From Nitrospira japonica (lineage in GTDB: Bacteria; Nitrospirota; Nitrospiria; Nitrospirales; Nitrospiraceae): a stretch of DNA of 64,000 bases. The stretch is from the NCBI RefSeq assembly GCF_900169565.1, contig NZ_LT828648.1:1180876-1244875 (forward strand), written 5' to 3'. The notes under the pieces are model-generated. The model worked only from the letters and a program-made list of their open reading frames with translations, had not been told where the DNA came from and did no database searches. A program made the translations under genes and the position numbers. Within the stretch, counting starts at the first letter, position 1. The number at the start of each line of letters is the position of its first letter. Shown here piece by piece: positions 16,768-43,676 of this stretch.

Positions 16768-17145
16768 CTATCGAACCCGCAGGAAGCTAGTTCTAGAGAT
16801 GTCTACAATCCAGGACTGGGTGAAGCTGGAGCCATATCCCCTGCTGCTACTGGTGTGGTCTCGTAGAATACCTGCTGACCTAAAAACTAGGCTCTGAGAA
16901 AACAAAACGCCGTATACTGACCTTAGTATTAAGTCAGCTTTCACCACTTGAGGAGTATCAATAGTTACTTGGTAGATTTTGTCGAAATGCATCCCGGTCT
17001 CGGTCCTACGGAACTGAGCACTGGATTGATCGTTGCTCTCTGCATGACGCAACCAGGTCTCTGAAGCGGTTAACGTAGCAAAAGCCACCGTTGAACCCAG
17101 GAAGTGTGTCCATCCTCCACGATAAATGCGTTTGGTGTCGTTCAC
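16768..17145 (-). CDS. Hypothetical protein, last gene of the giant-protein cassette
   Basis: A 125-residue ORF with a GTG start at 17145, about 40 bases after the stop of the 595-residue protein gene. Composition is natural and beta-rich (IYQVTIDTPQVVKADLIL), but no family is recognised and the ribosome site is poor, so the exact start is uncertain. If real it closes the seven-gene cassette. About 240 bases of non-coding sequence separate it from the caspase-NlpC gene. Confidence 0.5.
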   Translation of the reverse strand: MNDTKRIYRGGWTHFLGSTVAFATLTASETWLRHAESNDQSSAQFRRTETGMHFDKIYQVTIDTPQVVKADLILRSVYGVLFSQSLVFRSAGILRDHTSSSRGYGSSFTQSWIVDISRTSFLRVR

Positions 17146-17184
17146 GAGAACTTGGCATTGCAGCGCCGAAGTAAGCCTGCTTTT

Positions 17185-18972
17185 CTATGAGACATCAAAA
17201 CGCAACCCACTTGATCCTTCTCCGCGCCCCGGATGTTTGCGTCTGCCAAGCCACAGCAGAGAACTACCGCTGAGCCACCGTGCATGCTGATACGCACGCG
17301 TGAGCCGGACGCCTTCGCGCGGAATTTCCTCTTCGAAAATATCGAGTGAAGTTCCCGGAACTGGATTCATGAGCCGTCCCTGCGCAGTGTCACTTCGTAA
17401 CGATCCGTCTTGACGAAGGGTAGCTCCACGGCGAAACATGATGCCTCCTTCGTTTGGCCGTGCGAGGACGGGAATCAAAGGGACCCAATAGTCAGGAACC
17501 TCCGTAGCCAGGCGCCAAGCCGAGATGTCTTGTTGAGACGTGGGTTGGAAGCCTGGTTCACGCCGTTTAAGTTTTTCACTATAGGCTTCGCGGCGGTTGA
17601 CGGAACGGCCAGAGGGTCCTTCGGCATGGCCTTCAATCCCCCACGCCATGTTAGCCATCTCGTCTCGAATGAGTAGCACCTCGTCGACGGGTTTTCCTTC
17701 AAGAGTACGTCGAAGTGTGGGGGCCAGAAAGAACAGGTCTCGCTCCTCACCGGCCGCGCTTGTGCTCATGTCCGTCCCGCGAGCCAGCGAATGACTGAAC
17801 ATGCGCCAGAACGGCGAGGTTGGGTGCGTGGATGCTTTGATAGAGGGAATCAGGGTGCGCACGCCGAACGTGTCGCTGACGATCAGCGACTGAATCGTTG
17901 ATAGCGAGCCAATGGGCAGTTCGACAGGAATCACGAACCAATCATTGCCATACGTAACGGCGAACTCGATCAATAGCATCCGGGCAAGATCTTCCGGTCC
18001 CGAATCAACAGCGCCAAAGTTGACCGTCGCATCTTCAAACTCCCACCATCGGGTTTCTGGCATACCACTATAGCTCACTGGCGAGGGGATCACGGTTTGC
18101 AAGATCGGAGAGGAATTCTTGCCGTCAGCATCACCATCGGCTCCAAGGGACAACCCTGGGGCAAGATCGAAGTGAAACCAATCGAGGGATCCACCAGGAT
18201 ACTCTTGCGCCCTTAGCACTGTTTCCCGAAAGGTAGCTGGCGGTGTGATCGACGCTAACGGAGCAGAGATAGAGAATGCATATTCCATCCGCTGTGATGA
18301 CCATGCCGAATTGGCGACGACACGGCTGACCGGCTCGCTGACCAGTTGCTCATACCATAGGACAAACACGCGACCGACCTCGCGGACGTCTCCCTCATGG
18401 CTGGAATCAATGCCGAGCTCAGCAGGAAGCGCTCCCTTTCGGAGAGCCGCAACTAAGGCCGCGCCGTCAGGTACTCGCCCAGCCATAATATGGAGAAATC
18501 GCAATGCAGCTGCACCCCATGTGGCGATCTCCTCCGCTGTTGGAGGCGCCATGGGAAAGTGCTTGGTAAACGCTGCGTGGTATCGTGTTCCAAACGATTT
18601 CTGTCCAAGAAGACGAAGAAAGTGTTGACCAGCTTCGGCGGCAGCTCCCAACCCCATAGACGGCTGAGAGGTGGAGTACCGGAACGGCTCTCTTTCTACG
18701 AGGCTTTCAAGCGGCACCTGACCCGCGTCGTAGGCCTCCCCTTGAATCGATGGGGAGGACGGTGTTCCTAGGTGAACGCGCGTCAGTTGAGCTGAATCGC
18801 CACGTAGCACGGCGGTAACGGGAGATCCGCAATCCTGTCCTTGAAACTCCCCTAACTGCCACTGACGAGCCAGCAGCCATAAGGGATCATACACCTTCGC
18901 TTGGAGTGTGTCGGTGAGTGGAGTATGAGTTGCGTCTGGTTCTAATCGTGTCCACGTGGTTATCGAAGGCAT
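17185..18972 (-). CDS. Unrecognised 595-aa protein of the giant-protein cassette
   Basis: A 595-residue soluble protein without signal peptide or membrane helices. Its N-terminus contains the distinctive string VYDPLWLLARQWQLGEFQGQD (about residues 27-47), which I have the impression of having seen in other uncharacterised bacterial proteins encoded beside very large partners. Beta-rich and loop-rich segments dominate, and no enzymatic motif is evident. It starts 15 bases after the 1480-residue gene stop, so it belongs to the same transcript. A structural or scaffolding role is a guess from size, composition and neighbours. Confidence 0.75.
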   Translation of the reverse strand: MPSITTWTRLEPDATHTPLTDTLQAKVYDPLWLLARQWQLGEFQGQDCGSPVTAVLRGDSAQLTRVHLGTPSSPSIQGEAYDAGQVPLESLVEREPFRYSTSQPSMGLGAAAEAGQHFLRLLGQKSFGTRYHAAFTKHFPMAPPTAEEIATWGAAALRFLHIMAGRVPDGAALVAALRKGALPAELGIDSSHEGDVREVGRVFVLWYEQLVSEPVSRVVANSAWSSQRMEYAFSISAPLASITPPATFRETVLRAQEYPGGSLDWFHFDLAPGLSLGADGDADGKNSSPILQTVIPSPVSYSGMPETRWWEFEDATVNFGAVDSGPEDLARMLLIEFAVTYGNDWFVIPVELPIGSLSTIQSLIVSDTFGVRTLIPSIKASTHPTSPFWRMFSHSLARGTDMSTSAAGEERDLFFLAPTLRRTLEGKPVDEVLLIRDEMANMAWGIEGHAEGPSGRSVNRREAYSEKLKRREPGFQPTSQQDISAWRLATEVPDYWVPLIPVLARPNEGGIMFRRGATLRQDGSLRSDTAQGRLMNPVPGTSLDIFEEEIPREGVRLTRAYQHARWLSGSSLLWLGRRKHPGRGEGSSGLRFDVS

Positions 18973-18987
18973 AAGACATCCTTACCG

Positions 18988-21900
18988 TTACGGTCCGTCG
19001 ACGTCAAAGTCTCGATGCTCACCTTGCGGAGAGGGCATGACGTTGTTGCCCGGGTTGAGGAAATTGGTGCTGATCGTATCGTTTTTTGAGTTCAGCGCGA
19101 AATAGAGGGCCGGCAGGTATTGTCCCTGATCGAGCAGATCAGGTGTCACGGCCCGAATGTGAGCCAAATCTAGGGATTCCTGGAGAACTTGCAGGAGGGA
19201 TGTTGACGTCCAGAAGTTTTGCTCAGCAGGATTGGGTGGAACGGCCAAAAGAACCGCTTGGGGTGCGCAGGCATCGGGCCGATCATATTGGAATACGATA
19301 CCGGTCGTTTCTCGCTCATTCGGAACCACCTCCACCCATTCGTCGATCATCAACCCTGCGAGTGGTTCTGTGAGCTGAATCTCTCCTACCAGATGTGCAA
19401 TCAGGGAGAGCCGTCCGGTGGCCAGCGGTTTGTCATCACTTTTCGGCAGTCCGATCCAGCGGTCGCCCGGCTGGTACGGAAGTTGTGCCACCCTCAGTGT
19501 CAGACTATCGCCTGCCCCCAGGGCTTCGGCATTCCGTAGTGCCTCGTCAAGTCGAGCGATAGGCTCACGCACTCGGGCGAGGCGTTGGTGAAAGGTCACG
19601 ACGGCAAACGGATCGCCGCCCTGCAGGTCAGTACTGGCCGCCAAGGCCGTTTCAAGAGCGGCAAGATCTGGAACGATCACCCGAGGACAAATAACGAAAT
19701 CTTCACCAAAGACCAATTTAAGCCGCTCGAGATAACGCTCCAGCCTCGCTTCGTCCGAGAGCCCTGTGGCATTCAAGGCTTTGTCGTTACGGTCGATCTT
19801 TACAAGCCGCGCGGCGGCTTCCTTTTCTATGGATACGCCTTGCGAGATCAGCACCTGTCGAGCGGCATCACTTTCGGCAGATGCCGCGAGCGGAACGCCG
19901 CCGGGGAGCCCGAAGGCAGCCAGTGTCAACATCTCCTCGCGCAACCGTTCAAGTGGGGCGGTCTCGGGTACGGCAAGTGTTTTTTGCATCGCGGACAGAG
20001 CGTCACGAAACAGCATCGCGGCACGGTCGGCACGCTGTCTGAGATCTTCTAAACCAATACCCTCACCTCTCTGCAGATGGCCTAGCGTCAGATCAGCGGC
20101 GTCCAGCGGCCGCACACCCATGATCAAGTGCCGAACCGCACGCACTTGCTCGGTGAACTCAAGCCAACACAGATCAGTGAGAGGCCAAGCGGGATCTCGC
20201 TGCTGATTGAATCTCAGCTCTGACTCGGAGGGAAGATGTGGCAGGCTGCGCCGCACAGCATAAAGGATCCGCTGTTCAAGATCGGATTGCTGTGCTCCCT
20301 CGGTGGATGCCGAGGTGTACACAATATCGAGAGGTGACATCGGAAGTTCGCTGAGTCTCCAGTCAACTAGGCTAAGGAATGCGCCGGTGGACGGGTCTAC
20401 CTCCTCAATCCGACAGCGTACGTTTCGGGGATTGCCCAGCAGCTTTGCGATCCATGCGTTGAGCCACGGTTCGGCCTGTGCTCGTGGCGTATTGGCGTCT
20501 GGCCAATCTAGGAGAGTCTTTGACGGCGAACCTATCACACACAGGCGGTGGGTAAGTCCCGATCCCGAGCGAGGCGTACGCAAGACTTCAAGTTCGGGGG
20601 GAGGAGCCTCGCCTCGTTCCAGTGCATCGAGCGTCGCAGCGGCCCTCGTCGGATTACCGCGGACGATTTGGTGCACGCTCTCCGCGAGCAGTGCATCGCT
20701 GACAGCATCGATGACATTGCCTAGCGACCGCAGCTCCGATTCCAGCGCGGCGAGTTCCGTCGGGCTGGGGGGAAGACTCGTGTCCCCGCCAGCATCGATA
20801 TTCCTCACCTGCTTCCTAAATTCTTCACCATCTTCTATCCAGCGACGATACAATTTCAGTCCATCGACGACATGGGAAGCACGAATTGATTCGGAGGATC
20901 CGTCGGATTCGCCCTCTGCCTCGGTGACCCTGACTGCGGCCAACGGATCGAGCTTTCGAAGCCGGTGAATGAAACGATCCAGTGAATGATCGTGTAGGCC
21001 ACGTTCCAGTCTGTATCCAAGCAGCGCACCCAGAGGCTGACCGGCTCTCACGCCATCCAATAGCCATTGAGCCAGCCTCGCGCGCTCAGAGGAAAGGTTG
21101 ATCGCTAAGAGGTCTTTCTTCTCTAATAGGGCACGAGACAATTGACCGCTACGCAGCACAGCGGCGGTCGCCGCCTGATCCAGAGAGGGAGCATGTATAA
21201 ATCCAGGATTTTCGGCGACCTGACTTAGTGGTTCTGTCTCCCCTGGCGGCGGGGAAACTCTGGGAAGGGGTGCAGTAGCTTGAAGATTTTCCACCCATCC
21301 ATATGCCCCGACATAGACCCCCGTCGGCTTCTGAGTCCGCATAGTCCGAAGACGCCTGGTGGCAAACGACGTAATCCAGGCGTCCAGTCGATGACTCGAG
21401 AGGTCAAGAGTTCCGCGAAAGAGGACGTCGAGTTGCTCGGTGTGGAGACCTGCCAACAATCGCAGACTCTTCTCGAAGTCTCGATTCGCGTCATCTAAGA
21501 ACGAGGCGGCAGGTAGTCGCAAGTTATCAATCGTTGGCCAGGCCCGCCTGATACGGCCCACAGGCGTTTCCACTTTGGTAGATTGATTAAGTTCTATGTA
21601 CTCAGGTTCTTTGCGTTGGCTCGGCGATCGAACGCCCAGCTTTCGTGTGGCAGCGGCAGATAGCTCAAGCAGCAAGGCGTGACGCAGGAGCAGCTGGAGC
21701 AGGCTATACGGTGGTGAGATTTTGAGGAGGGTGCTGAAATCTTGTTTCAACAGCGAAGCGATGGCGGCTTCTTGACCATGCGGTTGAACTATGGGAAGGG
21801 CGTCAATGCGGTGGGCGTCAGTGTCGTGTAAGGCCAACGACAAGGGTGGAAATGGTCCCGGCATAAATGGAGTACGAAGCCCCGCTTGAAGAAGAGACGC

Positions 21901-23430
21901 GGCTGCCATGGCGACATGAGTGTTCGTCCATTTGTTAAATGTGGAATCGGTGGGAGGGCTCGTTTCCCTGGAAAGCATTCCCATGAATAGCAGGAGGTCT
22001 TTGGCATATAGTTCACCCAGTACGTTCCGCACCACGTAGCGAGAAGACAGACCGTCCATAGAAAAGATACGAAGAAAGTCCTCATCGGGATCCGCCGACT
22101 GCCTGATATGGGGCGCAAAGCCACTGGCACTAAGCCACCCGGAGCGATGGCGGCGGAGAAAGTTGATGACTTCTGCTTCAATGTTCGGCTGATCGCCCTC
22201 CCCTGGGACAGGTTTCCACATTTCTAACGAGGTGACAGGTAGAAACCCATAGGGTTGCCGCCCAACTCGAACGGCCGGCAGCGGACCGCTCGCCCGTACG
22301 AAGCCTATAAAATGGCTGCGGGACCATGAGAGAATTTTGTCCATCTCCGCCTCGGGAAACAGTCCATTCAGCATTTGGTCCAGATAGTAGCCCCAGGTCG
22401 CCGGCCACATAGCACGATTCATATGTTGCGCACACAACTGTTCTTTGTTGTCTGCCCCAACAATCCGAGTCAACGCATCGAGCGGAAATCCTAATGCTCG
22501 ACACAACGCGACGCCGTCGCATTGCTGGCTTGTCTGATACAGCGGTTCACCCACCACCGTTCTGACGATCTTCTCAGAAGTGGTCTTACCAGAAGAAAAC
22601 TCCGATTGGATGTCATCCGTGTTATTGGTCCGTGTCCCCTGCGCCAAGATACTTAGCCCTTCAGTGAACTGATGGGCAGTTAAGAGTTCTCTGACACGGA
22701 GGGCGCCACTCTCCGGAGTCAGCGACGCTTTCACCCCGTAGACAATGAGCCGATTGATGAGCAGCGAGCTACCAGGAGCCGGCGGTGGAAAGCGGAGACG
22801 AAGCGCCATCCCCACCTTTTCCGCTTCGTCGAATTCAATCATCCAGCGCATGTCTTCATCGACGGGTATCTGCTCAGGATTCTCTGGAATCTGCGCTTGA
22901 GGATTCGGTCCTACTGGAAGTGGGTCTTTAATGGGCAATCCCGTACCCGTGACCGGAGGCTTCAGACTCACGAAGGCGGTGGCCAACCACCGATCAGGCA
23001 ACACAGATGTTCTGGGCGCGCGGGTCCAGGTGTCCTGCCCCTCGCCGGCCGGTCTGCTTGCGACAGAAGGAAATTGGGGGGGAGCCGTAAACGGCTGCGC
23101 AGGACTCAATTCGATGGAAGGACGATCACCCTGATTCACTGGGGTAAGTTGGAGGGCCACATAGGCCGCGCGTTCGGCGCCGAACCGATCGGCAAGCTGC
23201 GCCCAGGCGACCGTCGTGCGTTCCATATTGCCACCAGCGCGCCACACGAGTTCATGAAAGTGCTTTCCCCACAGGAGTTCCTCGGTGGTGAGCTCTGGTT
23301 CATGGGTATCGATATGGATATCATCGGGGTAGACACGAATCCTCAACTCGGTTCCGAAAAAGCGGGTCTCCAGTCGAACCGGAAAGAGGGCCAACGGATG
23401 ATCAGCGTCAATTAATTTTGGATCGGGCAT
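18988..23430 (-). CDS. Unrecognised 1480-aa giant protein
   Basis: A 1480-residue protein, the largest of the cassette, with no signal peptide. The start MPDPKLIDADHPLALFPVRL leads to a beta-rich section (TRFFGTELRIRVYPDDIHI), and the C-terminal half is more helical with many Arg/Glu-Leu stretches. No known domain or catalytic motif could be identified. Spacing to its neighbours is nine bases upstream and 15 downstream, so it is co-translated with the 931- and 595-residue proteins. A cytoplasmic assembly or a particle released by another route are both compatible with the sequence, and neither is shown. Confidence 0.8.
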   Translation of the reverse strand: MPDPKLIDADHPLALFPVRLETRFFGTELRIRVYPDDIHIDTHEPELTTEELLWGKHFHELVWRAGGNMERTTVAWAQLADRFGAERAAYVALQLTPVNQGDRPSIELSPAQPFTAPPQFPSVASRPAGEGQDTWTRAPRTSVLPDRWLATAFVSLKPPVTGTGLPIKDPLPVGPNPQAQIPENPEQIPVDEDMRWMIEFDEAEKVGMALRLRFPPPAPGSSLLINRLIVYGVKASLTPESGALRVRELLTAHQFTEGLSILAQGTRTNNTDDIQSEFSSGKTTSEKIVRTVVGEPLYQTSQQCDGVALCRALGFPLDALTRIVGADNKEQLCAQHMNRAMWPATWGYYLDQMLNGLFPEAEMDKILSWSRSHFIGFVRASGPLPAVRVGRQPYGFLPVTSLEMWKPVPGEGDQPNIEAEVINFLRRHRSGWLSASGFAPHIRQSADPDEDFLRIFSMDGLSSRYVVRNVLGELYAKDLLLFMGMLSRETSPPTDSTFNKWTNTHVAMAAASLLQAGLRTPFMPGPFPPLSLALHDTDAHRIDALPIVQPHGQEAAIASLLKQDFSTLLKISPPYSLLQLLLRHALLLELSAAATRKLGVRSPSQRKEPEYIELNQSTKVETPVGRIRRAWPTIDNLRLPAASFLDDANRDFEKSLRLLAGLHTEQLDVLFRGTLDLSSHRLDAWITSFATRRLRTMRTQKPTGVYVGAYGWVENLQATAPLPRVSPPPGETEPLSQVAENPGFIHAPSLDQAATAAVLRSGQLSRALLEKKDLLAINLSSERARLAQWLLDGVRAGQPLGALLGYRLERGLHDHSLDRFIHRLRKLDPLAAVRVTEAEGESDGSSESIRASHVVDGLKLYRRWIEDGEEFRKQVRNIDAGGDTSLPPSPTELAALESELRSLGNVIDAVSDALLAESVHQIVRGNPTRAAATLDALERGEAPPPELEVLRTPRSGSGLTHRLCVIGSPSKTLLDWPDANTPRAQAEPWLNAWIAKLLGNPRNVRCRIEEVDPSTGAFLSLVDWRLSELPMSPLDIVYTSASTEGAQQSDLEQRILYAVRRSLPHLPSESELRFNQQRDPAWPLTDLCWLEFTEQVRAVRHLIMGVRPLDAADLTLGHLQRGEGIGLEDLRQRADRAAMLFRDALSAMQKTLAVPETAPLERLREEMLTLAAFGLPGGVPLAASAESDAARQVLISQGVSIEKEAAARLVKIDRNDKALNATGLSDEARLERYLERLKLVFGEDFVICPRVIVPDLAALETALAASTDLQGGDPFAVVTFHQRLARVREPIARLDEALRNAEALGAGDSLTLRVAQLPYQPGDRWIGLPKSDDKPLATGRLSLIAHLVGEIQLTEPLAGLMIDEWVEVVPNERETTGIVFQYDRPDACAPQAVLLAVPPNPAEQNFWTSTSLLQVLQESLDLAHIRAVTPDLLDQGQYLPALYFALNSKNDTISTNFLNPGNNVMPSPQGEHRDFDVDGP

Positions 23431-23439
23431 GTCGCCGTC

Positions 23440-26235
23440 TCACGAGCCGGTTAAGGGCAGCTGGTTTGCGTGAATGGCGAACCGAACAGGGTGCTGCAAG
23501 GTAATGCATGCCATGTGGGCGGCATTGGTCCCCCACCGAGCCTCGGAGCGATTCGCCGATGTGTCGGGTAATGAAGGCTGGCCCAGCGCCACACGCACAT
23601 GACTGAGTGTCATGAGTTCGGCCTCAGAGCGCACCAGATGCCGCCATGTCAGGTCGTTCCATGATTCGATTGGTACGGGCGTGTCACCCACTTTAATCGC
23701 GTCGCCAAGATCGAGGCCAAAAGATGGCTCGCCCGGCTGTTGTTGAATGATCAAGAAATACCCCAGCCCCCCGTCGCCCTGTGCCCCGCCAACGATCTGC
23801 GCTTTGGTCAGATCGAAACCGAAGAAGGTAATGTCGGGCTCGGTAAATCCTCGAAATAGAGGGTACCGTACAGTCTGGGCATTGGCATGATCCGGTCTCA
23901 ACGCTGTCGGCTGGCCGATAGCCGCGGCCGCGTAGACAATCGAGGTGGGGTAGCGTCGAAAAAGCTCGCTCCGGATGAGGACAATCAACGGCAATTTCCC
24001 TGACCTTTGTGTAGCATTATTTCCTAACGTTCGGTTCCATTCGGTGAGAGGGGCGAGCGCCAGCGAAGGGCTGTTCTCCGGCGCCCCGCGTTGGTCCCAG
24101 AACTTCCGGAAGAACGTACCGCGCAAATCGGTGGGATACTCGCGCCACAACAGTTCGCGCCCCATCTCATGGTTGAGACCAACCATGAAGGCTTCAATGA
24201 AGCGCATGTTCGGCTCGACAAGTGCCACACTGTTCGGCTCGACTCGTTCGAGTCCGGGAAGCAACATGTCCGGGGCGAGCGCAATCAGACGCTCTGACAT
24301 TGGATGGGGAAATTGCGGTATAGCGGCCAGCGGCTCCTCGTCGGTCTGCGGTCGAACTGTGCTTGTCGGGGTGACCTTACGAGGCGACAGCGGGCTCAAG
24401 TCGGCAAAGAGCGTTCGAATGTTGACGCTACTGAGACTTTTGGCACGTAGTCTTATGGGTCGGATGCTATTGAGATGATCGACAGCGGCTTGGCGAAATA
24501 CAGCGGAGCCGCGCCTACGCATCCAATGGCCGAGTACCGAGGTATAACTAATTCCTTGAGTTTTCTGCACCGTCGACGGAGTGAGTTTCTTAGCATCGAC
24601 CAAAGGGGTCTTGGCCCCGCCGGAAATCCGCATGATTGAAATCATGCCTGTATCCCGGGGTACAGCGGCGTTGGAGACTGGTTGGCGTGGTTGATCCAAC
24701 AATTTGACCAGAGGACGAGGAGGATGCGTATTCAGATTGGAAGAAGGGAGTGCCCGCCGATTTAACGGCCCGCGCGATCGAGCCACCCGACGCAAGACGG
24801 TTCTCGAAAACGTGGGGAACGTGCTCGATCCAATTTCATCGGCAACCGTCCCCATGCCTTCAGTGGTAGCGTGAAGTTTTGCCAGGCTGGGCCCGACAAT
24901 CTGTAACAGGGCATCGGGGCTCAGTGGGCGCACATGCTTTTCAAACGTCGCGGTCCGTGTGACCTGAGCCAGTTGGCGCAGCCGTCGATCACGGTTGATC
25001 TGTTGGATGGCCGGCAGTTGCTCCCAGGCCGAGGCCATGAGAAATTCCTGATCTTCCTGCACGATGCGTGTCCCTAAGGCAGCTGCAATGCGGTGGCGCG
25101 GATCGAGGTTGAGTTCATGCACCCATGAATGCGACGCTGTGGTGGGAAGTTCAACACGACGGATATCCGCATAAGGACCACCATAGATAGGGGGAGCCAC
25201 GATAAGGTCGTTGGATGGATTCGCACGCGCTTCCTCAGGTGCATTGAGGATTTTGGCGAGCGAACTCCGGAGTGCGTCGGGCACAGCAGAGACAGGTGCA
25301 GGATCGGTGCGAACGGGCAGTAAAACTCCATGCATGGAAATGATCGAGTCGGGCCGATCTGGCAAACCGAAGCCCGGATGACCAATGTCTAGCGGCCGAA
25401 TGCCGACCTCGGCAGGAATAGGGCGTGGTGTTTTGAGCTGGTCGATGAGGAATTCAAAGTCTCCTAGTTGCCCCGTGCTAAATGTCCAGGAGTAGTAAAC
25501 CGGCAGCAAGACCTCCGCAGCATTCGGTACCCAAGCCGGGGCCAGCTCGGCAAGATCTGCATCCGACAATGGAAGCCCAAGGCCCGTCTTGCGGCCCACC
25601 TCAAACGCAGGGATTACGCAGGCGGTGTAGGCGGTTAATGGCTCTAGGCGACGAGGGCACAACAGTCGTGAGACCGTCCGCTCTGGAGCCCCTTCGAGTG
25701 CGGCCTTCAGAGTGGACGTGCTGTCTGCGGAACTGCCGATGATCTCCGCGTGCGTCCAGGCCCAGGATTCCTGAAGATTGGGCAACTCAGCATCTGGGCG
25801 GGCGGGCGCACGAATGTCGAGGACCGGCAGAGCAAGCCCCCTTCGTCTCCCCAGACGGATACCCTCCTGTGGTTTCACAACGGCCAGGACAATCCAGGGA
25901 CGGAGTTGGTCGTTCGATCCCGTTTTGGCCGGGGTGAATAACCATGGAACGTCAGGCCGATCGAATTCGATGTGAGGAAACAAGTTGCTTTCGAATGTCG
26001 TCGTGTGTGGGCGCGGCTCCATGCGCACGATTTGCGACGGATCCAAGGCTGTCACATCTCCAGGCCCGTAGAGACGCAACTCTGTCGGTGGAAGGTCGAG
26101 CGCATTCAGTGTGATCTTCGCCGATATTGATACTTGTGCCGGCTGGTTTCGTGAGAGCGAATCTATCGTGGTGATCGCATTCGCCGTACCGTGCCGAACC
26201 CAGGGGAGAAAATGGCGAACAGTAGTATCGGCCAT
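23440..26235 (-). CDS. Unrecognised 931-aa protein of the giant-protein cassette
   Basis: A 931-residue protein beginning MADTTVRHFLPWVRHG, with a good ribosome site (GGAGG, eight bases before the ATG). The N-terminal 110 residues are beta-rich (AQVSISAKITLNAL...TELRLYGPGDVTAL). No signal peptide, membrane helix or catalytic signature is seen. The first 95 or so codons are part of the 2.5-kb direct repeat and recur in a truncated gene at 36687-37004. It follows the DUF6603 gene after 16 bases and precedes the 1480-residue gene by nine. The function is unknown. Confidence 0.8.
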   Translation of the reverse strand: MADTTVRHFLPWVRHGTANAITTIDSLSRNQPAQVSISAKITLNALDLPPTELRLYGPGDVTALDPSQIVRMEPRPHTTTFESNLFPHIEFDRPDVPWLFTPAKTGSNDQLRPWIVLAVVKPQEGIRLGRRRGLALPVLDIRAPARPDAELPNLQESWAWTHAEIIGSSADSTSTLKAALEGAPERTVSRLLCPRRLEPLTAYTACVIPAFEVGRKTGLGLPLSDADLAELAPAWVPNAAEVLLPVYYSWTFSTGQLGDFEFLIDQLKTPRPIPAEVGIRPLDIGHPGFGLPDRPDSIISMHGVLLPVRTDPAPVSAVPDALRSSLAKILNAPEEARANPSNDLIVAPPIYGGPYADIRRVELPTTASHSWVHELNLDPRHRIAAALGTRIVQEDQEFLMASAWEQLPAIQQINRDRRLRQLAQVTRTATFEKHVRPLSPDALLQIVGPSLAKLHATTEGMGTVADEIGSSTFPTFSRTVLRRVARSRGPLNRRALPSSNLNTHPPRPLVKLLDQPRQPVSNAAVPRDTGMISIMRISGGAKTPLVDAKKLTPSTVQKTQGISYTSVLGHWMRRRGSAVFRQAAVDHLNSIRPIRLRAKSLSSVNIRTLFADLSPLSPRKVTPTSTVRPQTDEEPLAAIPQFPHPMSERLIALAPDMLLPGLERVEPNSVALVEPNMRFIEAFMVGLNHEMGRELLWREYPTDLRGTFFRKFWDQRGAPENSPSLALAPLTEWNRTLGNNATQRSGKLPLIVLIRSELFRRYPTSIVYAAAAIGQPTALRPDHANAQTVRYPLFRGFTEPDITFFGFDLTKAQIVGGAQGDGGLGYFLIIQQQPGEPSFGLDLGDAIKVGDTPVPIESWNDLTWRHLVRSEAELMTLSHVRVALGQPSLPDTSANRSEARWGTNAAHMACITLQHPVRFAIHANQLPLTGS

Positions 26236-28459
26236 GGAGCGCGACCTCCGATCAAGGCGTTACGGCCACAATCTGCAGACCCGCTTGTTCCGTAAAATTC
26301 AGCTTTCTCTTCGCAGCATCAGCTTCAGCGTAGGTAACGAAGTCCGTCGAATTGAGCCGTTTCGTAAGATTGGACTTTGAGACCAATCGGAAGATCTTGC
26401 TCCGAGTCGGCAGTTTTAGGGCGGGAGCTCGGTAGCGGTTTGGCCCGGAGTGTTTGGCTGCGTGCAGACCAGCTGCGCTCCACCGCGAAAGTCGAGCGGC
26501 AATCCCGGCGTCCATCGTATGGCGTGGAGGCGGCGGGCCAGCCGGTTTGGGGATGATCTTTTCTTCATACTCCACTGTAGTCGTGAGTGGAGCGCCATGC
26601 TCCGCCTGTTGGGTTGTAGCCTGGATCCCAGCTTCTAACAATTCAAACGACGGGCTCGACAACTTCTCATCATCCGACATGTCACGAAACTGGGCCGGGG
26701 CAAAGTGATCACGTACCGGTTCGGTGTCAACACCTCCTATGCCGATCTGAAGTTGTTGGATTTGGAATTCCTGCGGCCCGCCAGCGACGGGCGTTGTCCC
26801 AAACCGTGTGATCAGAAGGTTCAACGGCACGACATTTTGTTTGATCGTCAGGAGACCCAGCGGGTGCATGCGTATCCCCGTCGAGTCGTCAATCTCACGC
26901 AGACTCACCAATCTCGAAAGCGTGCGCGGCAGAGCCGCGCTCCACGCGGCCGGCTGGCTCAACGCTTCTCGCAACAGTCTGGCCACATCAGTCGACTCGG
27001 GAACCGGGGGAGATTCCCCTTCGATAAGGGTCGTGTCGAATGACACCGATTTCCTAAAGATCCAGATCTTAAATGTGGCTTTCCCCCGAACATGTAACGG
27101 ACGCGGGCCGGACAGTTCGCCCTCGAAGGACACCATGAAGAGGCTTCGGCCGAAGGCCTTCAATTCCAATGATGCATGCAGCGCCGCGACGAAATGAAAT
27201 GGGTTAAATTGAATCAGCACATCGAAGCCTGCCATACCTTCGACACTGAATTTCGATTTTTTCGCGAACAAATGCACGTGCGCGCCGAACTGGACGGTGT
27301 TGGAAGTGATGGCGAAATACGCCTCGCACCGGAGCTTCAGATCGTCGGAATTCGCTAGTACGATGGCGAGGCGGGGCATCGGCTCAAGTCCAGGGGGAGG
27401 CGTAAAGTCCGGATGCACCCCGCCGATCGCCAGGATAAAAGACGGATTCCGGTTCCAAGTCATCCGCATCCGCATCTCGCCGGTGATGACGTATTTGTTC
27501 AGCAAACGCGAGTCGTGCAGCACCGCATCGAGAAAGGCCCGCTCTTGCGCGAAATCGATTCCGCCAAAGACGTACATCTGGAGGCGGACAAGATCCAGCT
27601 CCTGCCTGGGAAGGATCGCCGAAAGGTGCCCAACCATTAGTGCCCTGGTGCGCACGCCGAATTCCACAATGAAGGCTAAGCGAATGATGGCAAGGGGTGG
27701 AGTGCCCCACGTAATCTGCACGACCGGCCCAAAGAGATGATGATCCTGTGCCGGAGGAAACACCGTGTTGAGTGCACTTAGATATTGAGGCCCATTGCGG
27801 ACCGGATCAGCCGGTGCGAGGATACCGTCGAGCGTGTTGGCGCGCATACCTAGCTGAATGGCGTCTTCGTTCGCTGTTCGATGGATGCCGAGAAGCCCAC
27901 CGATTCCCCGGAGCATGAACCCCAAGCCAAGCGGGATCGGCTTGAAGCCTTCGGCGGTGATCACCACAACAAGGGAAAATCCGTTCTGGCCGCCCGGCAG
28001 CCGCGTATGAATCAGCCCAAGGGCCCGCACGGCGATGCCGCCTTGCATCTCCAGGTAGAGCACACCCGCATACTGAGCTTGCTGAGGATCGAAGGAAAGA
28101 AAGCCTCCCCCATGTACGACGCCGGCATCGATCGTGAGGCCGACGCCGGTGGGAGGCTTGAAACGGAAGTCCAGATCCGCCACACCAAGATTGCCCCCAG
28201 TTTGGGGGAAAGTTAGGTCAGCAGCGAGTCCCACTCGCTCTATCGTTGCTTCTACGGGGCCAAGCCGGAGCACGAGTGTGGCCGATGCTTCTGTTTCCAA
28301 GCCTTTGTCGCCGGCATGCAGCCGGAGATGAACGGTCGGCACCTTCAGCCCACCTATCGCAAGCCCAATTGGTAAGGTTGCGTCCAGCCCCGTGCTGCCA
28401 CGCAGTGTCAGTCCTCGTTCGTTGGACCAGGCCAGGCCGAGATCGAAGTTGGCCCGCAT
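25953..28459. repeat. 2507-bp direct repeat, copy 1
   Basis: This block recurs at 36722-39228 in the same orientation, exactly 10,769 bases away. I saw one difference within it (G at 25987, A at 36756). It spans the 5' end of the 931-residue gene, the 16-base spacer and the 3' two-thirds of the DUF6603 gene. Identity ends abruptly at both edges: T versus G at 25952/36721 and A versus G at 28460/39229. Confidence 0.93.
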
Positions 28460-29614
28460 ACCGTTCGCCGGCAGAATGCTGCTGAGGAAGCCGTCACCGT
28501 TGGCAGGCGCGATGATCAGGGCTGAGGAGAATACGTCGGCAGAAATCGCAAGCGATTGCCGTGTTTCAGAGAGCGAGGTCTCGATTCTGAGCCGTGCGCC
28601 TCCTACCTCAATGCGTGTTGAGCCCGGAGCGCCGAGAACAAACCCCGGTGTATCTTCTTGTCCCTCAAGCGTTGCGGAGAAGCTTGCCGTCGCTTCTGTG
28701 GTCCCTGTGCTCGCCGAGAGCGTTATGCCATGACGGCCGTAGGCAATTACGTCCACCCCAGCTGTGACATGGTTTGAAACTGTCCATGCGCCAACGTCCT
28801 TGGTGGAGGTAATCGAACCAAATGGGCTCATCACCAGGCCGAGATCACCTTGGTCAGCGGACGAGATCCCAAGCACGACACCAGCCTCCGCAGAGGCATT
28901 TGCGAAAAGGTCATCAACATAGACGATTAAGGCATACCGCATTAAGGGTGCCGCGTCACCGAGCAGATCCTCATCTTCTGGGTTAAAGCTATAACAGCAG
29001 GAAACTCCTACCTCGCGAAATAGGCGAGCCAGTCTGAGAAAAAGTTTTTTCGCCATCGCCCCTGCATCAGCCGTTGTGGCAAGAGCGTTGACGTATTCAG
29101 CACAAAGTGTCGTCTTGGGATCCCGCACGAGGTCGATCACGCGATAAATGTGGAAACGGTCGTGGCTCAGTGGATTTTGGTCGTGCTGTTCCTCAGCGGG
29201 TTCTATTAGCGTCAATAGCACGGCCACATGCCGTGCAAGTGGAAATCGGTCCTTCAAGTAGATGGTAATCAAGAGATTCGCCAAATACTCGCCCAAGCCT
29301 TCGACCCCGCTGGGGTTCCCACCGGTGCCTCTTATTGAGCGGATTGCAGCGACTGCTTGCCGTGATACGTCAAGTAAAGACGCGAGATGATTCAGTGAAG
29401 GTGATGGTCGCGCTATCAAGGAAACAAGTTGGGCCCGGAGACCGTCTACCATACCCAGCGCCCCGATAATCCTATCGACGTCTTCTTTGGACGTTGACGT
29501 GCCGATGTCTGTCATGAGCCGGCGTAGCGCCTGTGGGCGCTTAATGGCTCTGCTTGATATAGCGAGAAAGCCATCAATTTCTTCAATGAGTAGATTGAAA
29601 AGGGTCTTACTCAT
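26252..29614 (-). CDS. DUF6603 domain protein (original copy)
   Basis: A 1120-residue protein. Residues 1-370 are helical then beta-rich and specific to this group. From about residue 375 (GDGFLSSILPANGMRANFDL) to about 950 the sequence matches what I know of DUF6603: long beta-strand repeats, LPIGLAIGGLKVPTVHLRL, glycine-rich LGLGFMLRGIGGLLGIH. This pattern is compatible with a beta-barrel or beta-helix-like surface, but no signal peptide is present. The ATG overlaps the stop of the upstream PhoD-like gene by four bases (29611-29614). The last two-thirds are duplicated in a second, chimeric gene at 37021-40557. Confidence 0.85.
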   Translation of the reverse strand: MSKTLFNLLIEEIDGFLAISSRAIKRPQALRRLMTDIGTSTSKEDVDRIIGALGMVDGLRAQLVSLIARPSPSLNHLASLLDVSRQAVAAIRSIRGTGGNPSGVEGLGEYLANLLITIYLKDRFPLARHVAVLLTLIEPAEEQHDQNPLSHDRFHIYRVIDLVRDPKTTLCAEYVNALATTADAGAMAKKLFLRLARLFREVGVSCCYSFNPEDEDLLGDAAPLMRYALIVYVDDLFANASAEAGVVLGISSADQGDLGLVMSPFGSITSTKDVGAWTVSNHVTAGVDVIAYGRHGITLSASTGTTEATASFSATLEGQEDTPGFVLGAPGSTRIEVGGARLRIETSLSETRQSLAISADVFSSALIIAPANGDGFLSSILPANGMRANFDLGLAWSNERGLTLRGSTGLDATLPIGLAIGGLKVPTVHLRLHAGDKGLETEASATLVLRLGPVEATIERVGLAADLTFPQTGGNLGVADLDFRFKPPTGVGLTIDAGVVHGGGFLSFDPQQAQYAGVLYLEMQGGIAVRALGLIHTRLPGGQNGFSLVVVITAEGFKPIPLGLGFMLRGIGGLLGIHRTANEDAIQLGMRANTLDGILAPADPVRNGPQYLSALNTVFPPAQDHHLFGPVVQITWGTPPLAIIRLAFIVEFGVRTRALMVGHLSAILPRQELDLVRLQMYVFGGIDFAQERAFLDAVLHDSRLLNKYVITGEMRMRMTWNRNPSFILAIGGVHPDFTPPPGLEPMPRLAIVLANSDDLKLRCEAYFAITSNTVQFGAHVHLFAKKSKFSVEGMAGFDVLIQFNPFHFVAALHASLELKAFGRSLFMVSFEGELSGPRPLHVRGKATFKIWIFRKSVSFDTTLIEGESPPVPESTDVARLLREALSQPAAWSAALPRTLSRLVSLREIDDSTGIRMHPLGLLTIKQNVVPLNLLITRFGTTPVAGGPQEFQIQQLQIGIGGVDTEPVRDHFAPAQFRDMSDDEKLSSPSFELLEAGIQATTQQAEHGAPLTTTVEYEEKIIPKPAGPPPPRHTMDAGIAARLSRWSAAGLHAAKHSGPNRYRAPALKLPTRSKIFRLVSKSNLTKRLNSTDFVTYAEADAAKRKLNFTEQAGLQIVAVTP

Positions 29615-31986
29615 ACTCCCCTAGGATTCGGCTCAACCCAAGGTTCAAGGCTAACCTCGTAGAGGGTCTCGACCCATAGGTCTCCGCGATCGGGGTGCCA
29701 CCAGCGCAATTTGTGATTTATTTTCTCAGCACTTTCAAACTCGATCTCGCCGATATTGTTGCGCCCTACGATTTCTTGTTTCTTTTTGAGAGTGCGGTTG
29801 TATCTTCGGATGATTTCGGAAGCCTCACGATAAGCTCTTGCCATCATTTTGAAGGGATCTTCCGTACCGTCGGTAGGGACGAGAGGGATTAAGGGACGCG
29901 GAGAAAGTGAAACCCCTTTGTTGGAGGCGATAAGATACTCGAGACTATACCGATAACCGGGCTCGTCGGAAATGAACACATTTTTTGCATACACGGTGGC
30001 GCCGTCGATTGGTCCTATATAAAATTCGGGCCGGTGAGGGGGAACTAAGGGTTCTCCCCACCACGGAGCAAAATCATATCCGTCGCGATGCACCCCAATG
30101 GTGTCATTATCTTCATTCTTAAATGGACTCGTCACTAGCTGAGCAATTATTGCTGTTGCAGGCTGCGCTTCCAAATCCTCAAATCGTGATTTGGCTTTGT
30201 AGACGAGGCGGGAGGCGAAGCTATGATGGACGTCGCCAGACAGCACAACTATATGACCGTAGTGTTTCGTCTCTCCGAGTATCGGCAGCATATCGGTAAG
30301 AGTGACAAGGAGACGATCAAATGCGGCTGAAGGGCACTCCCATGCCTCATATATATCGGGGTAGTGTTCGAATGTATTAGATGCCCCGCTATGGGCGCTG
30401 GCCACGCGTATCGGCTGGATTGGTGGCGCGTTAGTGGACAACACGACGAGCAGCGCTTTATTTCCATGTTTAGGTCTCTTATCGTAGATTTGTACCTTTA
30501 ATTGACTCGCTGAAAGCATATGCGATCCCTCTTCATCTTTCTTGAATGAGCGCCACGTGCGGGTGTCCGTGAAGATCACATGATGCTTAGGGCCCTCGAC
30601 GGTAAAGTTGTACACGAGCGATTGTCCCTCATCATGATAGAGGTCGTAGTCAGACGACAAACCAAGCGCATCATTAATCCGATGCACTCCGATGAGAGTG
30701 AGGATGTCTGGAGAATGTGCTCCGTATTGTTCTGCTGTCCCTTTGTCAAGAAGTTGCAGAAGAGCGGTACCTGGAAGCGCTGAATTGGCTGCCTCGAATT
30801 GCTCAGGTGCATTCCCCCAATGTTGACAGAGTGCGTAGGCAACAAGGGCGTTCTGCACGATGCGCAGGCCGAGGTCAGAACTATACACATCACTGCAGAA
30901 TTGGCGTGTCATGTTCCAATCGTCAGTTATCTCATGATCATCGAACATCATGTAGGTTGGAATATTTGCCAGCGCGCGTCGAACTTGGGGTAGTGTCCTA
31001 AAAAATTCAGCGACCCGTTCTGTCCTCGTCTGGATTGTCTTACGCTTCAACGTGGAGAGCCCATCTTCCTTGGGAATAAGTGTATAGACCTCGGCGGCGA
31101 GCTCATCGAATGTGGGCATTACGCTGGGCCACAGAACGTCGGACCAGACGAATAGATACATACTCAAATATTCACCCAGAGACATCAGATGATTCTCCAT
31201 GGCGGAAGATGTGAAGCCCGGCCTGATAGAAAAACGTCCCGGACCGGGGGATAGGAGGACGAATGCACGGAGACAGGCAGGAATAGGATGGTTAAAGTCG
31301 TAAAAGTCGTCAGAAGTACTGGCGCCGATTTTGCGGGCAGGACCTATAATCCCTGGAACGTATTCTTGACCGATCAGAATCTTGGCAGCATCAATGAGGA
31401 CCATCAACAGTGATTCCGATACATCATCTGCGTAGATCTGATCACCCGTAAGCAAGAGTTGATGCGGGCGAGCCAGTGGCCGCTGGCTCGAGGTCGCCTG
31501 GGCAATCAAATCATCAAGAATGGCAAGAGCGTCCTTCCCGCGTCCATGCGGCTTGCGGCAAGAGCCCTGTATCAGCCGTAACTGGTTTAGATCTTCTGGC
31601 GGCAAGCAGAAGCTAGGCAGATCGTACGGCTCGTATGCAAGTTTTGCCCTGATGTCGATTACATCAGCAAGTTTCGTCGTAGTGCCATTGGATCGGAATT
31701 CAACCTGATATCGGTAGACAATATTCTTTTCAAGTTCAACCCGAGGAGGAATAATGGTTGCCGTAACTGCAACCAAATGAAGGTTTGTTCCGATGGCAAT
31801 AGTTGGACGAGTCCCGCTCATGACTGGCTGACCCATGTCATTTAGAACCTCGAGGTAGACTTCGGAGACCGACTCTTTCAGAGCAAACCAAACAGTTACT
31901 GAATCAGGTGTGACCTTACGCAGCATGGGGCCAGCGAGCACGAGCGGAAGAGTTTCCAAACGACCCTTAAGCGAAGTCCACTTCAT
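29611..31986 (-). CDS. PhoD-like metallophosphatase
   Basis: A 791-residue protein with the calcineurin-like metallophosphatase signature of the PhoD group: LTGDQIYADD (179-188), FDDHEITDDW (348-357) and VLSGDVHHSF (581-590) supply the expected Asp, His and Asn/Asp ligands of a two-metal centre. An N-terminal beta domain (about 10-115) precedes the catalytic part, as in many PhoD-like proteins. Unlike secreted PhoD alkaline phosphatases it lacks a Tat or Sec signal, so it probably acts in the cytoplasm on a phosphodiester or phosphomonoester substrate. The ribosome site (GGGAG, six bases before the ATG) is good. It is coupled to DUF6603 by ATGA. A decayed copy of its 5' end lies at about 43000-43190. 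Confidence 0.88.
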   Translation of the reverse strand: MKWTSLKGRLETLPLVLAGPMLRKVTPDSVTVWFALKESVSEVYLEVLNDMGQPVMSGTRPTIAIGTNLHLVAVTATIIPPRVELEKNIVYRYQVEFRSNGTTTKLADVIDIRAKLAYEPYDLPSFCLPPEDLNQLRLIQGSCRKPHGRGKDALAILDDLIAQATSSQRPLARPHQLLLTGDQIYADDVSESLLMVLIDAAKILIGQEYVPGIIGPARKIGASTSDDFYDFNHPIPACLRAFVLLSPGPGRFSIRPGFTSSAMENHLMSLGEYLSMYLFVWSDVLWPSVMPTFDELAAEVYTLIPKEDGLSTLKRKTIQTRTERVAEFFRTLPQVRRALANIPTYMMFDDHEITDDWNMTRQFCSDVYSSDLGLRIVQNALVAYALCQHWGNAPEQFEAANSALPGTALLQLLDKGTAEQYGAHSPDILTLIGVHRINDALGLSSDYDLYHDEGQSLVYNFTVEGPKHHVIFTDTRTWRSFKKDEEGSHMLSASQLKVQIYDKRPKHGNKALLVVLSTNAPPIQPIRVASAHSGASNTFEHYPDIYEAWECPSAAFDRLLVTLTDMLPILGETKHYGHIVVLSGDVHHSFASRLVYKAKSRFEDLEAQPATAIIAQLVTSPFKNEDNDTIGVHRDGYDFAPWWGEPLVPPHRPEFYIGPIDGATVYAKNVFISDEPGYRYSLEYLIASNKGVSLSPRPLIPLVPTDGTEDPFKMMARAYREASEIIRRYNRTLKKKQEIVGRNNIGEIEFESAEKINHKLRWWHPDRGDLWVETLYEVSLEPWVEPNPRGV

Positions 31987-32389
31987 GGTGTACTCCCATT
32001 GAGGTGACCATCATTAGGAGTACACGAACCTGCTCCTACTGATGACACTTCTGCCCAGTAATTGTGCGCGGCAGTGAAAGTAGTTTGAAATGCGGAGGAA
32101 TAGGTTGCTACACCAACTGCCAATTGATGCATTTCAGCCTCAATGATGGCAACGGCTCGCTGAAGAATTGAAGAGGAAGGTAAATTATTCGCTGCGGACT
32201 AAGGTGTCAATATAAATAAATCTAATACGTGTAATTTAACTGATCTTTTACCCCTTCTAGGCGAGCAACCGGTCTATCGTCGACAGGTCGTGCACAGAAG
32301 CCACATCCGTTTTGGATGGGATTTGCAATCGAACTGTTCTGTACATTGACCACTGTACTAACACCTGGCTTTTATCGGCCTAACAGCGC
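31987..32389. other. Intergenic spacer between CHAP-like and PhoD-like genes
   Basis: About 400 bases with no gene on either strand. It includes a conserved tract (about 32040-32235, ending AATACGTGTAATTTA) that recurs in diverged form at about 43250-43450. Conservation of a non-coding tract between copies suggests a promoter or other regulatory site for the PhoD-led operon, but no clear -35/-10 pair could be fixed. Confidence 0.5.
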
Positions 32390-33226
32390 CTACGAATCGT
32401 AGCTAATAAACCCTTTGGTTATTTCCGATACCTTTCTGCCGGTTCTCCGGAAAACGCCAATCCCTTCTCGACCGCCTGAGAGGTTCGTGTTTCCTTCGAT
32501 CGTAATCAACCGATCATCACGAAAGCCTTCTACCAAGCCCATATGACCGTTTCCTCCTCCAGTGCTCATAGTAAAGATGAGCCCAGGTTTCAGAAGTGAC
32601 AAATCGTCAAGCAGTTCTTCTGGAAGTATCAGCCTAGCGCCTGCTTTGGCCGCCTTCTTCCAATGATCGAGGACGCCTGCCGTGCACACAACGGGATTAG
32701 CGATTCCCACCCTAGCCGCAGCTCTTTCAAACGACCAATATACAAAAGCGGCACACCAGGGATAACTTCCTGCCGAGGGATCCAAGCGAACTGATCGGAT
32801 ATATTCGTCGACTTGAGGCCCCCGATTTGAACCTGCAGGGTCTTCCATGACACCGACTTGCGAGGCAGCAATATTAAGACATGCTTTTAATAGCAGTGAG
32901 ATAGGCTGATCAGTGATAGCAGGTAGCGCCTGTTGACCGAACAACGCTGTCCAGGTCAGAGGACCTACTACACTGTCCACTTTCAATGCCTGACCCTGCC
33001 CATCTACTGTTCGAGCCTGAAACAGTCGAACGGCAGATCGCGTCGAACTGTTAAAGTCACCGCTGACTAAAAGCGGCCCACACCCTACTTCATTGAGTCG
33101 CTGCTGCACAGCCCGTACAGAAGCGTTGTCTTTTATACCGACTTTGATGATGTGTCCTGGATAAGCCCGGCCAGCATTGCGCCCTACATTCCCTCTCCCT
33201 GATGACGTTCGATGACGTGTTGCCAT
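32390..33226 (-). CDS. Peptidoglycan-binding protein with CHAP/NlpC-like amidase domain
   Basis: A 278-residue protein. A basic N-terminus is followed by a PG_binding_1 domain (about 32-97; VRAVQQRLNEVGCGPLLVSGDF, SVVGPLTWTALFG). A CHAP-like cysteine amidase domain (about 112-275) follows, with Cys158 in PWCAAFVYW, His228 in GGGNGHMGLVEG and EGNTN (244-248) as probable catalytic triad. This layout is typical of endolysins and of hydrolases in secretion or contractile systems. No signal peptide is seen, so export would need a lysis- or injection-type route. The ribosome site GAGGAG precedes the ATG. It heads the minus-strand cassette, and its last codons recur as a remnant at 43601-43676. Confidence 0.88.
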   Translation of the reverse strand: MATRHRTSSGRGNVGRNAGRAYPGHIIKVGIKDNASVRAVQQRLNEVGCGPLLVSGDFNSSTRSAVRLFQARTVDGQGQALKVDSVVGPLTWTALFGQQALPAITDQPISLLLKACLNIAASQVGVMEDPAGSNRGPQVDEYIRSVRLDPSAGSYPWCAAFVYWSFERAAARVGIANPVVCTAGVLDHWKKAAKAGARLILPEELLDDLSLLKPGLIFTMSTGGGNGHMGLVEGFRDDRLITIEGNTNLSGGREGIGVFRRTGRKVSEITKGFISYDS

Positions 33227-36592: not shown

Positions 36593-36721
36593 TTACGTTT
36601 GCTTTTCGTTTCGTAGCCCCCAATTGAACGTTTGGGTTTTACTGCCCGGCTTAACCTGCAACACGACATCATTTGCTAACTTGAACTCATAATTCAACGG
36701 ACCAGCTAATTTGGGACGGGG
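36593..36721 (-). pseudogene. 3'-end remnant of an unknown gene, abutting the direct repeat
   Basis: Read on the minus strand, the last 43 or so codons before a TAA at 36593-36595 look like real protein (NYEFKLANDVVLQVKPGS, ending WGLRNEKQT). They are in a different frame from the truncated 931-type gene that runs into them from the right. The simplest view is that the junction at 36721/36722 joined the duplicated block to the tail of another gene whose 5' part is gone. Confidence 0.35.
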
Positions 36722-37004
36722 CAGGCCGATCGAATTCGATGTGAGGAAACAAGTTACTTTCGAATGTCGTCGTGTGTGGGCGCGGCTCCATGCGCACGAT
36801 TTGCGACGGATCCAAGGCTGTCACATCTCCAGGCCCGTAGAGACGCAACTCTGTCGGTGGAAGGTCGAGCGCATTCAGTGTGATCTTCGCCGATATTGAT
36901 ACTTGTGCCGGCTGGTTTCGTGAGAGCGAATCTATCGTGGTGATCGCATTCGCCGTACCGTGCCGAACCCAGGGGAGAAAATGGCGAACAGTAGTATCGG
37001 CCAT
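36687..37004 (-). pseudogene. Truncated copy of the 931-aa protein gene
   Basis: The first 95 or so codons match the start of the 931-residue gene, including the ribosome site, as far as EFDRP. The duplication then ends at 36722, and 11 foreign codons follow before a stop. The product would be a 105-residue fragment containing only the N-terminal beta-rich part. It is most likely non-functional. It remains 16 bases downstream of the chimeric DUF6603 gene, as in the original copy. Confidence 0.85.
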
Positions 37005-42970: not shown

Positions 42971-42999
42971 ATGAGTTATGAAGATAGGGCTCCAAGAGC

Positions 43000-43190
43000 G
43001 ACGGTTGAGCAATTCCCTTCATAAGTAGGTCTTGCTCATTTAGAACTTCCAGAAAGAGAGGGGAGCGATTCTTTAGCGCAAACCGAACAGCCACTGATCA
43101 GGAGTAACCATGCGTAGCATAGGATCCGCAAGCACCAGCGGAAGCTGTTCTAGACGATTTTCAAGAGAGGTCCACGCCATAGCGCTCCCA
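43000..43190 (-). pseudogene. Decayed 5' end of a PhoD-like gene
   Basis: The minus strand aligns by eye with the first 55-60 codons of the PhoD-like gene (31830-31986). Matching tracts include those for the start (ATGGCGTGGACCTCTCTTGA), the LVLAGPMLR-like segment and the WFALKE-like segment. Frame-breaking changes are present and the gene ends abruptly at the GC-rich block. It is not functional and marks the right arm of the duplicated cassette. Confidence 0.65.
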
Positions 43191-43249: not shown

Positions 43250-43450
43250 ATGGCACTTTTGGCCAGTAATTGTGCACGGCAGTGAAAGTTGTGTGCGATG
43301 CAGACGAGTAACTTCTCTACACCAACTGCCAATTGCTGCATTCCATCCTCAATGATGGCAACTGCTCGTTGAAAAATCGGAGAGGACGTAAACTATTCGC
43401 AGGCTTTTAACTTGTCAACCTAAATAAATCAAATACGTGTAATTTAGGAC
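43250..43450. repeat. Diverged copy of the CHAP-PhoD intergenic tract
   Basis: The tract matches about 32040-32235 with scattered differences; shared words include CCAGTAATTGTGC, CGGCAGTGAAAGT, CACCAACTGCCAATTG, TCAATGATGGCAAC and AATACGTGTAATTTA. It preserves order and orientation relative to the PhoD remnant and the CHAP-like remnant. Confidence 0.75.
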
Positions 43451-43600: not shown

Positions 43601-43676
43601 CTAGGGATGGTAGCTAACGAACCCTTTGTTTATTTCCGAAAGCTTCCTGCCGGTTCTGCGATACACGCCAACCCCT
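43601..43676 (-). pseudogene. 3'-end remnant of the CHAP-like hydrolase gene
   Basis: About 24 codons before a TAG at 43601-43603 read GVYRRTGRKLSEINKGFVSY. This is clearly homologous to the C-terminus of the intact hydrolase (GVFRRTGRKVSEITKGFISY). Upstream of the fragment, homology is lost. It is the outermost recognised piece of the second cassette copy. Confidence 0.75.

Follow-up and report, generated by a model that had tools for sequence, protein, structure and literature searches.

The window analysed here, a 64,000-nucleotide stretch of the Nitrospira japonica genome (contig NZ_LT828648.1, positions 1,180,876 to 1,244,875; the host genome is a single 4.08-Mb contig), carries a minus-strand gene cluster in which a PhoD-like metallophosphatase of 791 amino acids (aa) precedes a DUF6603 protein (1120 aa; D) and three large proteins, A931 (A), B1480 (B) and C595 (C). 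An earlier note on this DNA had described a cassette of seven genes. The seven open reading frames (ORFs) are present at the lengths it gave, and the intervals between consecutive genes, PhoD through C595, are -4, 16, 9 and 15 bases, as claimed. Five of the genes (17185-31986) are conserved as a unit at related loci; a 278-aa peptidoglycan (PG) hydrolase and a 125-aa ORF, at the two ends of the cassette, are excluded from it. The five genes are probably co-transcribed and form an apparently undescribed system.

As the earlier note held, only three kinds of protein in the cassette have recognizable domains: Pfam identifies DUF6603 (PF20248; 445 bits for the main copy against a cut-off of 27, E = 4e-133), PhoD (PF09423; 37.8 bits against a cut-off of 27, E = 1.6e-9) and, in the hydrolase, PG_binding_1 with CHAP. 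The PhoD motifs GSCR, TGDQIYAD, DDHE and SGDVH are kept in relatives of the 791-aa protein. A931, B1480 and C595 have no match in Pfam, NCBIfam, PADLOC or PHROGs, and a simple hydrophobicity test supports the reported absence of signal peptides. The presumed promoter of the PhoD operon consists of TTGACA (32205-32210) and TAATTT (32182-32187) with a 17-bp spacer, a site (32182-32210) to which a promoter scanner gave no score. The hydrolase gene lies 403 bp upstream of the PhoD gene and is absent at related loci except for one partial match (L038, 119 aa, opposite strand), and a search of the first set of loci with the 125-aa ORF found no relative. As neither is conserved at related loci, both were rejected as components of the system, including the wall hydrolase to which the earlier note had given a part.

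We searched 84,980 bacterial and archaeal species genomes with A931, which has 471 relatives there, and analysed the best 80 with 10-kb flanks; these loci are the closest matches to A, and the linkage counts therefore hold for that portion of the family alone. With few exceptions, intact loci have D, A, B and C in fixed order on one strand. Counted by script, D adjoins A in 70 of 72 testable loci, A adjoins B in 80 of 80 and C follows B in 73 of 74. One exception (L018) is a gene-calling artefact, D being annotated there; in another, a Pyrinomonadaceae metagenome-assembled genome (MAG; L043), a single 2168-aa ORF (L043:4656-11162) encodes B1480 joined to C595; at the third (L091) D seems truly missing. 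The 80 loci come from Nitrospirota, Acidobacteriota, Pseudomonadota, Bacillota, Verrucomicrobiota, Myxococcota, Chloroflexota, Bacteroidota, Actinomycetota, Cyanobacteriota, Goldiibacteriota and one Nitrososphaerales archaeon, about a dozen phyla including archaea, and plasmid-borne cores occur in haloarchaea, Streptomyces, Rhizobium and Gemmatirosa. Two MAG contigs, labelled Lysobacter (L057) and Gemmatimonadetes/Gemmatimonadota (L082), nest inside the Nitrospira clade of the A931 tree; they are probably binning errors and were left out of the phylum count. The earlier note had allowed that the block might lack linkage in other genomes; because D-A-B-C recurs in fixed order across these phyla, that is not the case.

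Within Nitrospirota the cassette is unevenly spread: 36 of 396 genomes have it, of which 35 belong to a single family. In the genus of the window itself, only 2 of 7 genomes carry it. One Nitrospira clade has an extra Ala/Gln-rich protein of 269-345 aa, probably a coiled-coil, between A931 and B1480 (16 loci, for example L026:9696-10631 and L030:9417-10340). The core proteins themselves have acquired domains in places: the C595 of Caulobacter zeae has a PA14/F5-8C insert, that of Halobellus a lamin-tail domain, and the A protein of Streptomyces FG-GAP repeats, which suggests that the core is exposed and target-binding. No gene family recurs in the flanks.

What changes from locus to locus is the gene directly upstream of D, which commonly overlaps D by 4 bases. 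This slot was labelled at 66 loci, window included, from Pfam matches of representatives and from sequence clusters. A PhoD-like enzyme occupies it at 25 of them; the other classes are subtilase (S8), M64 peptidase, phospholipase D (PLD), trypsin-like protease, patatin, Het-C, beta-lactamase-like, galactose-oxidase-like, DUF2515 and DUF4056 proteins, and a wall amidase fills it in a second module in the window and in Ancylobacter crimeensis (L063). Comparison of related loci thus indicates what the earlier note could not see, an exchangeable slot gene. Its class changes at least 24 times on the A931 tree, and near-identical cores (branches of ~0.02 on that tree) bear S8, M64 or PLD effectors. 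The S8 and trypsin-like effectors have in common a ~97-residue C-terminal domain (consensus NRRVxVxWHR), which also stands alone as a gene in three of these operons; neither Pfam, in the proteins scanned, nor a PDB profile search matched it. In a divergent second class of loci (L152, L153 and L154, from G080, G258 and G410), a gene for a DUF6603-like protein (1243-1684 aa) comes before one for an A931-like protein (496-772 aa), with more large genes beyond; at L153 the DUF6603 and A-like genes follow a gene for a phospholipase D-like protein that matches a PDB sequence at 5e-18. This class follows the same modular logic.

The N-terminal third of D changes together with the slot. Among similar cores of the Nitrospira clade, compared as 33 same-effector and 103 different-effector pairs that are statistically non-independent, D residues 1-375 are 74% identical within an effector class and 22% between classes, residues 376-900 are 86% against 76% identical, and the tail 83% against 81%. 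Tandem operons of the order PLD-D, S8-D, A, B, C (L054/L029, L055 and L062) place two such proteins side by side: their N-termini are 23-25%, their conserved domains 83-86% and their tails 94-100% identical. In comparisons between phyla that were matched for divergence of the conserved domain, the N-termini linked to S8 and to trypsin-like effectors are related (~0.12 normalised bits) and those of other pairs of classes score 0.01-0.04, PhoD being the most distinct, again among non-independent pairs. Counting N-terminal BLAST hits over all phyla gave 291 same-class pairs, where shuffling gave 205 on average and 284 at most; this test is weak because all D N-termini are distantly related, and divergence-matched comparisons were used instead. 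By these sequence measures, the DUF6603 N-terminus tracks the effector class and its C-terminus does not.

The window also preserves the remnant of a replacement. A second, partial copy, absent from the earlier note, lies at 36687-42859 (module region 36.7-43.4 kb; Table 1) and pairs an amidase with a DUF6603 paralogue that is 30% identical to the main copy in its N-terminus and 100% identical in its C-terminus. The 2,507-bp block that the two modules have in common differs by one mismatch (at 25987), and the DNA upstream of the modules is 72% identical. Upstream of the amidase gene lies a decayed PhoD start, a stretch coding for 29 residues (43094-43180) with 76% identity to the N-terminus of PhoD (1.4e-8 by tblastn), with a frameshifted continuation (42969-43094) read by eye in the ORF list, and then the last ~22 codons of a PG hydrolase gene (77% identity over 22 aa, E = 1.6e-7, tblastn). 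A homologue of the amidase adjoins DUF6603 in A. crimeensis, an alphaproteobacterium (E = 4.5e-162). The amidase-linked D N-terminus finds its best match in the same locus, the only other amidase locus and one from another phylum (E = 5e-60, 194 bits; next best 105 bits); this match was examined after the class pattern had been seen. The simplest history would start with duplication of the cassette. The PhoD gene and its D N-terminus would then have been displaced by the amidase with its own D N-terminus, most of A and all of B and C would have been lost from the second module, and the shared block would recently have been homogenised.

Table 1. Features of the main cassette and of the second module (positions in the window)
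Feature	Position	Strand	Basis or remark
125-aa ORF	16768-17145	minus	ORF list; outside the conserved unit
C595 core protein, 595 aa	17185-18972	minus	
B1480 core protein, 1480 aa	18988-23430	minus	
A931 core protein, 931 aa	23440-26235	minus	
DUF6603 protein, 1120 aa	26252-29614	minus	Pfam DUF6603
DUF6603 conserved C-terminal part, predicted amphipathic antiparallel beta sheet/barrel	26252-28498	minus	Pfam, AF2
DUF6603 N-terminal ~372 aa, effector-specific, predicted docking segment	28498-29614	minus	Identity comparison, AF2
Effector slot, PhoD-like metallophosphatase, 791 aa	29611-31986	minus	Pfam PhoD
Presumed promoter/leader of PhoD operon	32108-32238	minus	Common to 43317-43446 upstream of the amidase module
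PG hydrolase, 278 aa	32390-33226	minus	PG_binding_1 + CHAP; outside the conserved unit
Second-module A931 copy, truncated after ~94 residues	36687-37004	minus	
2,507-bp block, putative recombination or gene-conversion tract	36722-39228	minus	Matches 25953-28459
Second-module DUF6603 paralogue	37021-40662	minus	444.7 bits
Second-module effector, 762 aa, Amidase_2	40571-42859	minus	Pfam 2.8e-8
Decayed PhoD-type gene start	42969-43180	minus	tblastn and reading of the ORF list
Remnant, 3' end of 278-aa-type PG hydrolase gene	43610-43675	minus	tblastn

In the AlphaFold2 (AF2) model, D starts with helices and continues with about 35 strands, its N-terminal segment being first helical and then beta-rich; many strands of the conserved part are hydrophobic on one side and polar on the other. 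The best Foldseek matches are giant beta-barrels (the SlpA complex, the FimD/PapC ushers and LptD) with template modelling (TM) scores of 0.26 or less, and the model's predicted TM score (pTM) is 0.52, so that its global shape is unsure; we therefore claim only that the conserved part is predicted to be a large amphipathic antiparallel sheet or barrel. Because its hosts include archaea and Gram-positive bacteria and signal peptides are lacking, an ordinary outer-membrane barrel is unlikely; it may instead be a pore, a lipid-binding groove or an enzyme-enclosing shell. C595 is modelled with good confidence (predicted local distance difference test 80.5, pTM 0.80), and at E<=0.001 it resembles no PDB or viral (BFVD) structure. 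When the core families were all searched as profiles against PDB sequences, nothing meaningful came back, the hits of DUF6603 being mostly designed or natural helical proteins aligning with its N-terminal helices. Mutual homology of A, B and C was considered and rejected, as profile-profile comparison detected none.

We hypothesize that the conserved part of DUF6603 together with A931, B1480 and C595 would form a constant multi-protein chassis, and that the gene upstream would supply an interchangeable effector enzyme, here the PhoD-like phosphatase. The N-terminal third of D may act as the cognate docking adaptor that binds the effector, the two moving as one cassette that could be swapped by recombination inside the conserved DUF6603 region, and the assembled complex would deploy the bound enzyme. 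We are confident in the modular architecture itself, a fixed core with an exchangeable slot; the whole statement, with its assembly and deployment but without a direction of action, we consider probable. The most likely target (about 45%) is other cells or outside material, reached after lysis or by another release route, a view favoured by the extracellular-type domains in the core, a wall amidase among the effectors and the rapid turnover of the slot.

Several observations weigh against this proposal. The loci were found to have no secretion signal, no export gene and no clear transmembrane segment, which leaves an outward route unexplained, and no immunity gene recurs in the flanks to accompany effectors that could harm their producer. 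About ten loci (including L084, L099, L102, L108 and L114) have no recognizable same-strand slot enzyme, and the galactose-oxidase-like, DUF2515, DUF4056 and tyrosinase-like (by eye) slot proteins are not obvious toxins. Several slot genes were called trypsin-like on the strength of Pfam hits below threshold, the C-terminal domain in common with S8 effectors and a visible GDSG motif. The unsure overall shape of the DUF6603 model counts here too.

Other genes of the window were noted in passing. Caspase-domain (Peptidase C14) genes stand on either side of the cassette (13663-16527 and 33607-35328), and a CHAT-TPR protein of 1208 aa (8019-11645) contains 14 near-identical 126-bp repeat units, which suggests recent expansion or homogenisation. 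These neighbours were rejected as members of the system, as they do not recur at related loci. A RES-domain protein, possibly a toxin degrading nicotinamide adenine dinucleotide, lies within a row of plus-strand genes (3011-4048), and a giant ORF at 54441-63890 (at least 3149 aa, open at the window end) has 37 DUF5649 repeats.

The lack of export signals, together with a resemblance to effector-associated domains (EADs), makes a role in intracellular conflict possible, although we think it rather unlikely. In immunity or programmed death of this kind, the chassis would sense invasion and free a tethered hydrolase, held by EAD-like adaptors, to damage the membrane or proteins of its own cell. 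Effectors that act inside cells commonly include proteases, patatin and PLD, and the ~97-aa domain of the S8 and trypsin-like enzymes, also encoded alone, resembles the EAD principle (PMC8195603); two caspases and the CHAT-TPR protein adjoin the window copy. Such neighbours do not recur elsewhere, however, nor does a STAND, MoxR-vWA, GTPase or other switch recur near the core, and PADLOC gave no match. Amidase and oxidase effectors make little sense inside a cell, and the domains inserted in the core proteins are of extracellular type.

A surface or extracellular multi-enzyme scaffold for nutrition, scavenging phosphate or protein with exchangeable catalytic subunits that are not toxins, is less probable again. 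PhoD, M64, subtilase and oxidase enzymes could serve such scavenging, the PA14, F5/8C, FG-GAP and lamin-tail domains would suit a scaffold, and the absence of immunity genes is in its favour. Yet enzyme and scaffold have no signal peptides, patatin, Het-C, PLD and the wall amidase fit poorly, and such rapid exchange of the slot enzyme between near-identical cores is commoner among conflict genes.

The particle-like or release system that the earlier note was reminded of by the large co-transcribed proteins and nearby wall hydrolases, in the form of a cryptic particle, tailocin or contractile injection system, is very improbable, as the sheath family (PF04984) is absent from the whole genome (control matches in 3 of 14), viral contigs contain no core relatives, C595 matches no viral or PDB fold and the core proteins match no PHROGs family. 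With viral contigs, PHROGs and, for C595, BFVD all negative, a prophage or phage-derived element was rejected as well; MT835531, a phage-labelled metagenomic record marked unverified, contains the cassette, unannotated.

The earlier note's suggestion of an undescribed system holds up: a search of 5.39 million open-access papers found no mention of DUF6603 (PF20248) and no description of the system. Nor does any model of a known anti-phage defence system in PADLOC (2023 library) match. Contractile injection systems, including the extracellular type, resemble the cassette in their large operon and in effectors without signal peptides, but the genome has no phage-type sheath and the cassette no tube, baseplate or AAA+ gene. 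In Tc toxin complexes, several very large co-encoded proteins deploy a variable enzyme. The loci studied here likewise combine very large co-encoded proteins with a variable enzyme; unlike in Tc complexes, the enzyme is separate, no Tc, SpvB or Rhs domain was detected and no predicted structure matched Tc.

The ternary conflict systems built on vWA-MoxR or iSTAND have a constant core, interchangeable effectors and effector-associated domains (PMC8195603). Similarities extend to trypsin-like and lipid-hydrolysing effectors and to a small adaptor domain that also stands alone. The nucleoside triphosphatase switch (ATPase or GTPase) of those systems is missing, with none found by Pfam in the window core and none recurrent in the flanks, and four large proteins without known function take part here instead.

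Rhs and contact-dependent inhibition (CDI) polymorphic toxins have a constant part with exchangeable toxic ends, which undergo recombinational displacement and leave orphan modules beside the full locus (PMC2935791, PMC3967940). A variable module on a constant carrier and displaced or orphan modules are seen here too, the toxicity of the enzymes being putative. The differences are that two-partner secretion is lacking, that what varies is an upstream gene of its own together with the N-terminal part of the protein that follows, and that the D-A-B-C system is also found in archaea and Gram-positive bacteria. The core proteins have no Pfam or NCBIfam match to the YD/Rhs repeats or filamentous haemagglutinin that are hallmarks of Rhs, CDI and Tc systems. 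Unlike in those systems, no cognate immunity gene is present: a 4-base overlap between the effector gene and that for DUF6603 is common, and the flanks have no recurrent family. Our analysis predicts the enzyme partner of each type of DUF6603 N-terminus. It also suggests that one system accounts, as its effectors, for many phosphatases, subtilases, M64 peptidases and phospholipases that are now orphans. At slightly less than even odds, we propose that these loci represent an unrecognised class of toxin- or enzyme-deploying machine common to bacteria and archaea, unrelated to known secretion, injection and polymorphic-toxin systems. In it DUF6603, a giant amphipathic beta-sheet protein, would bear an exchangeable adaptor, by which one out of a dozen unrelated enzymes is loaded onto a chassis of three proteins without a recognised fold.

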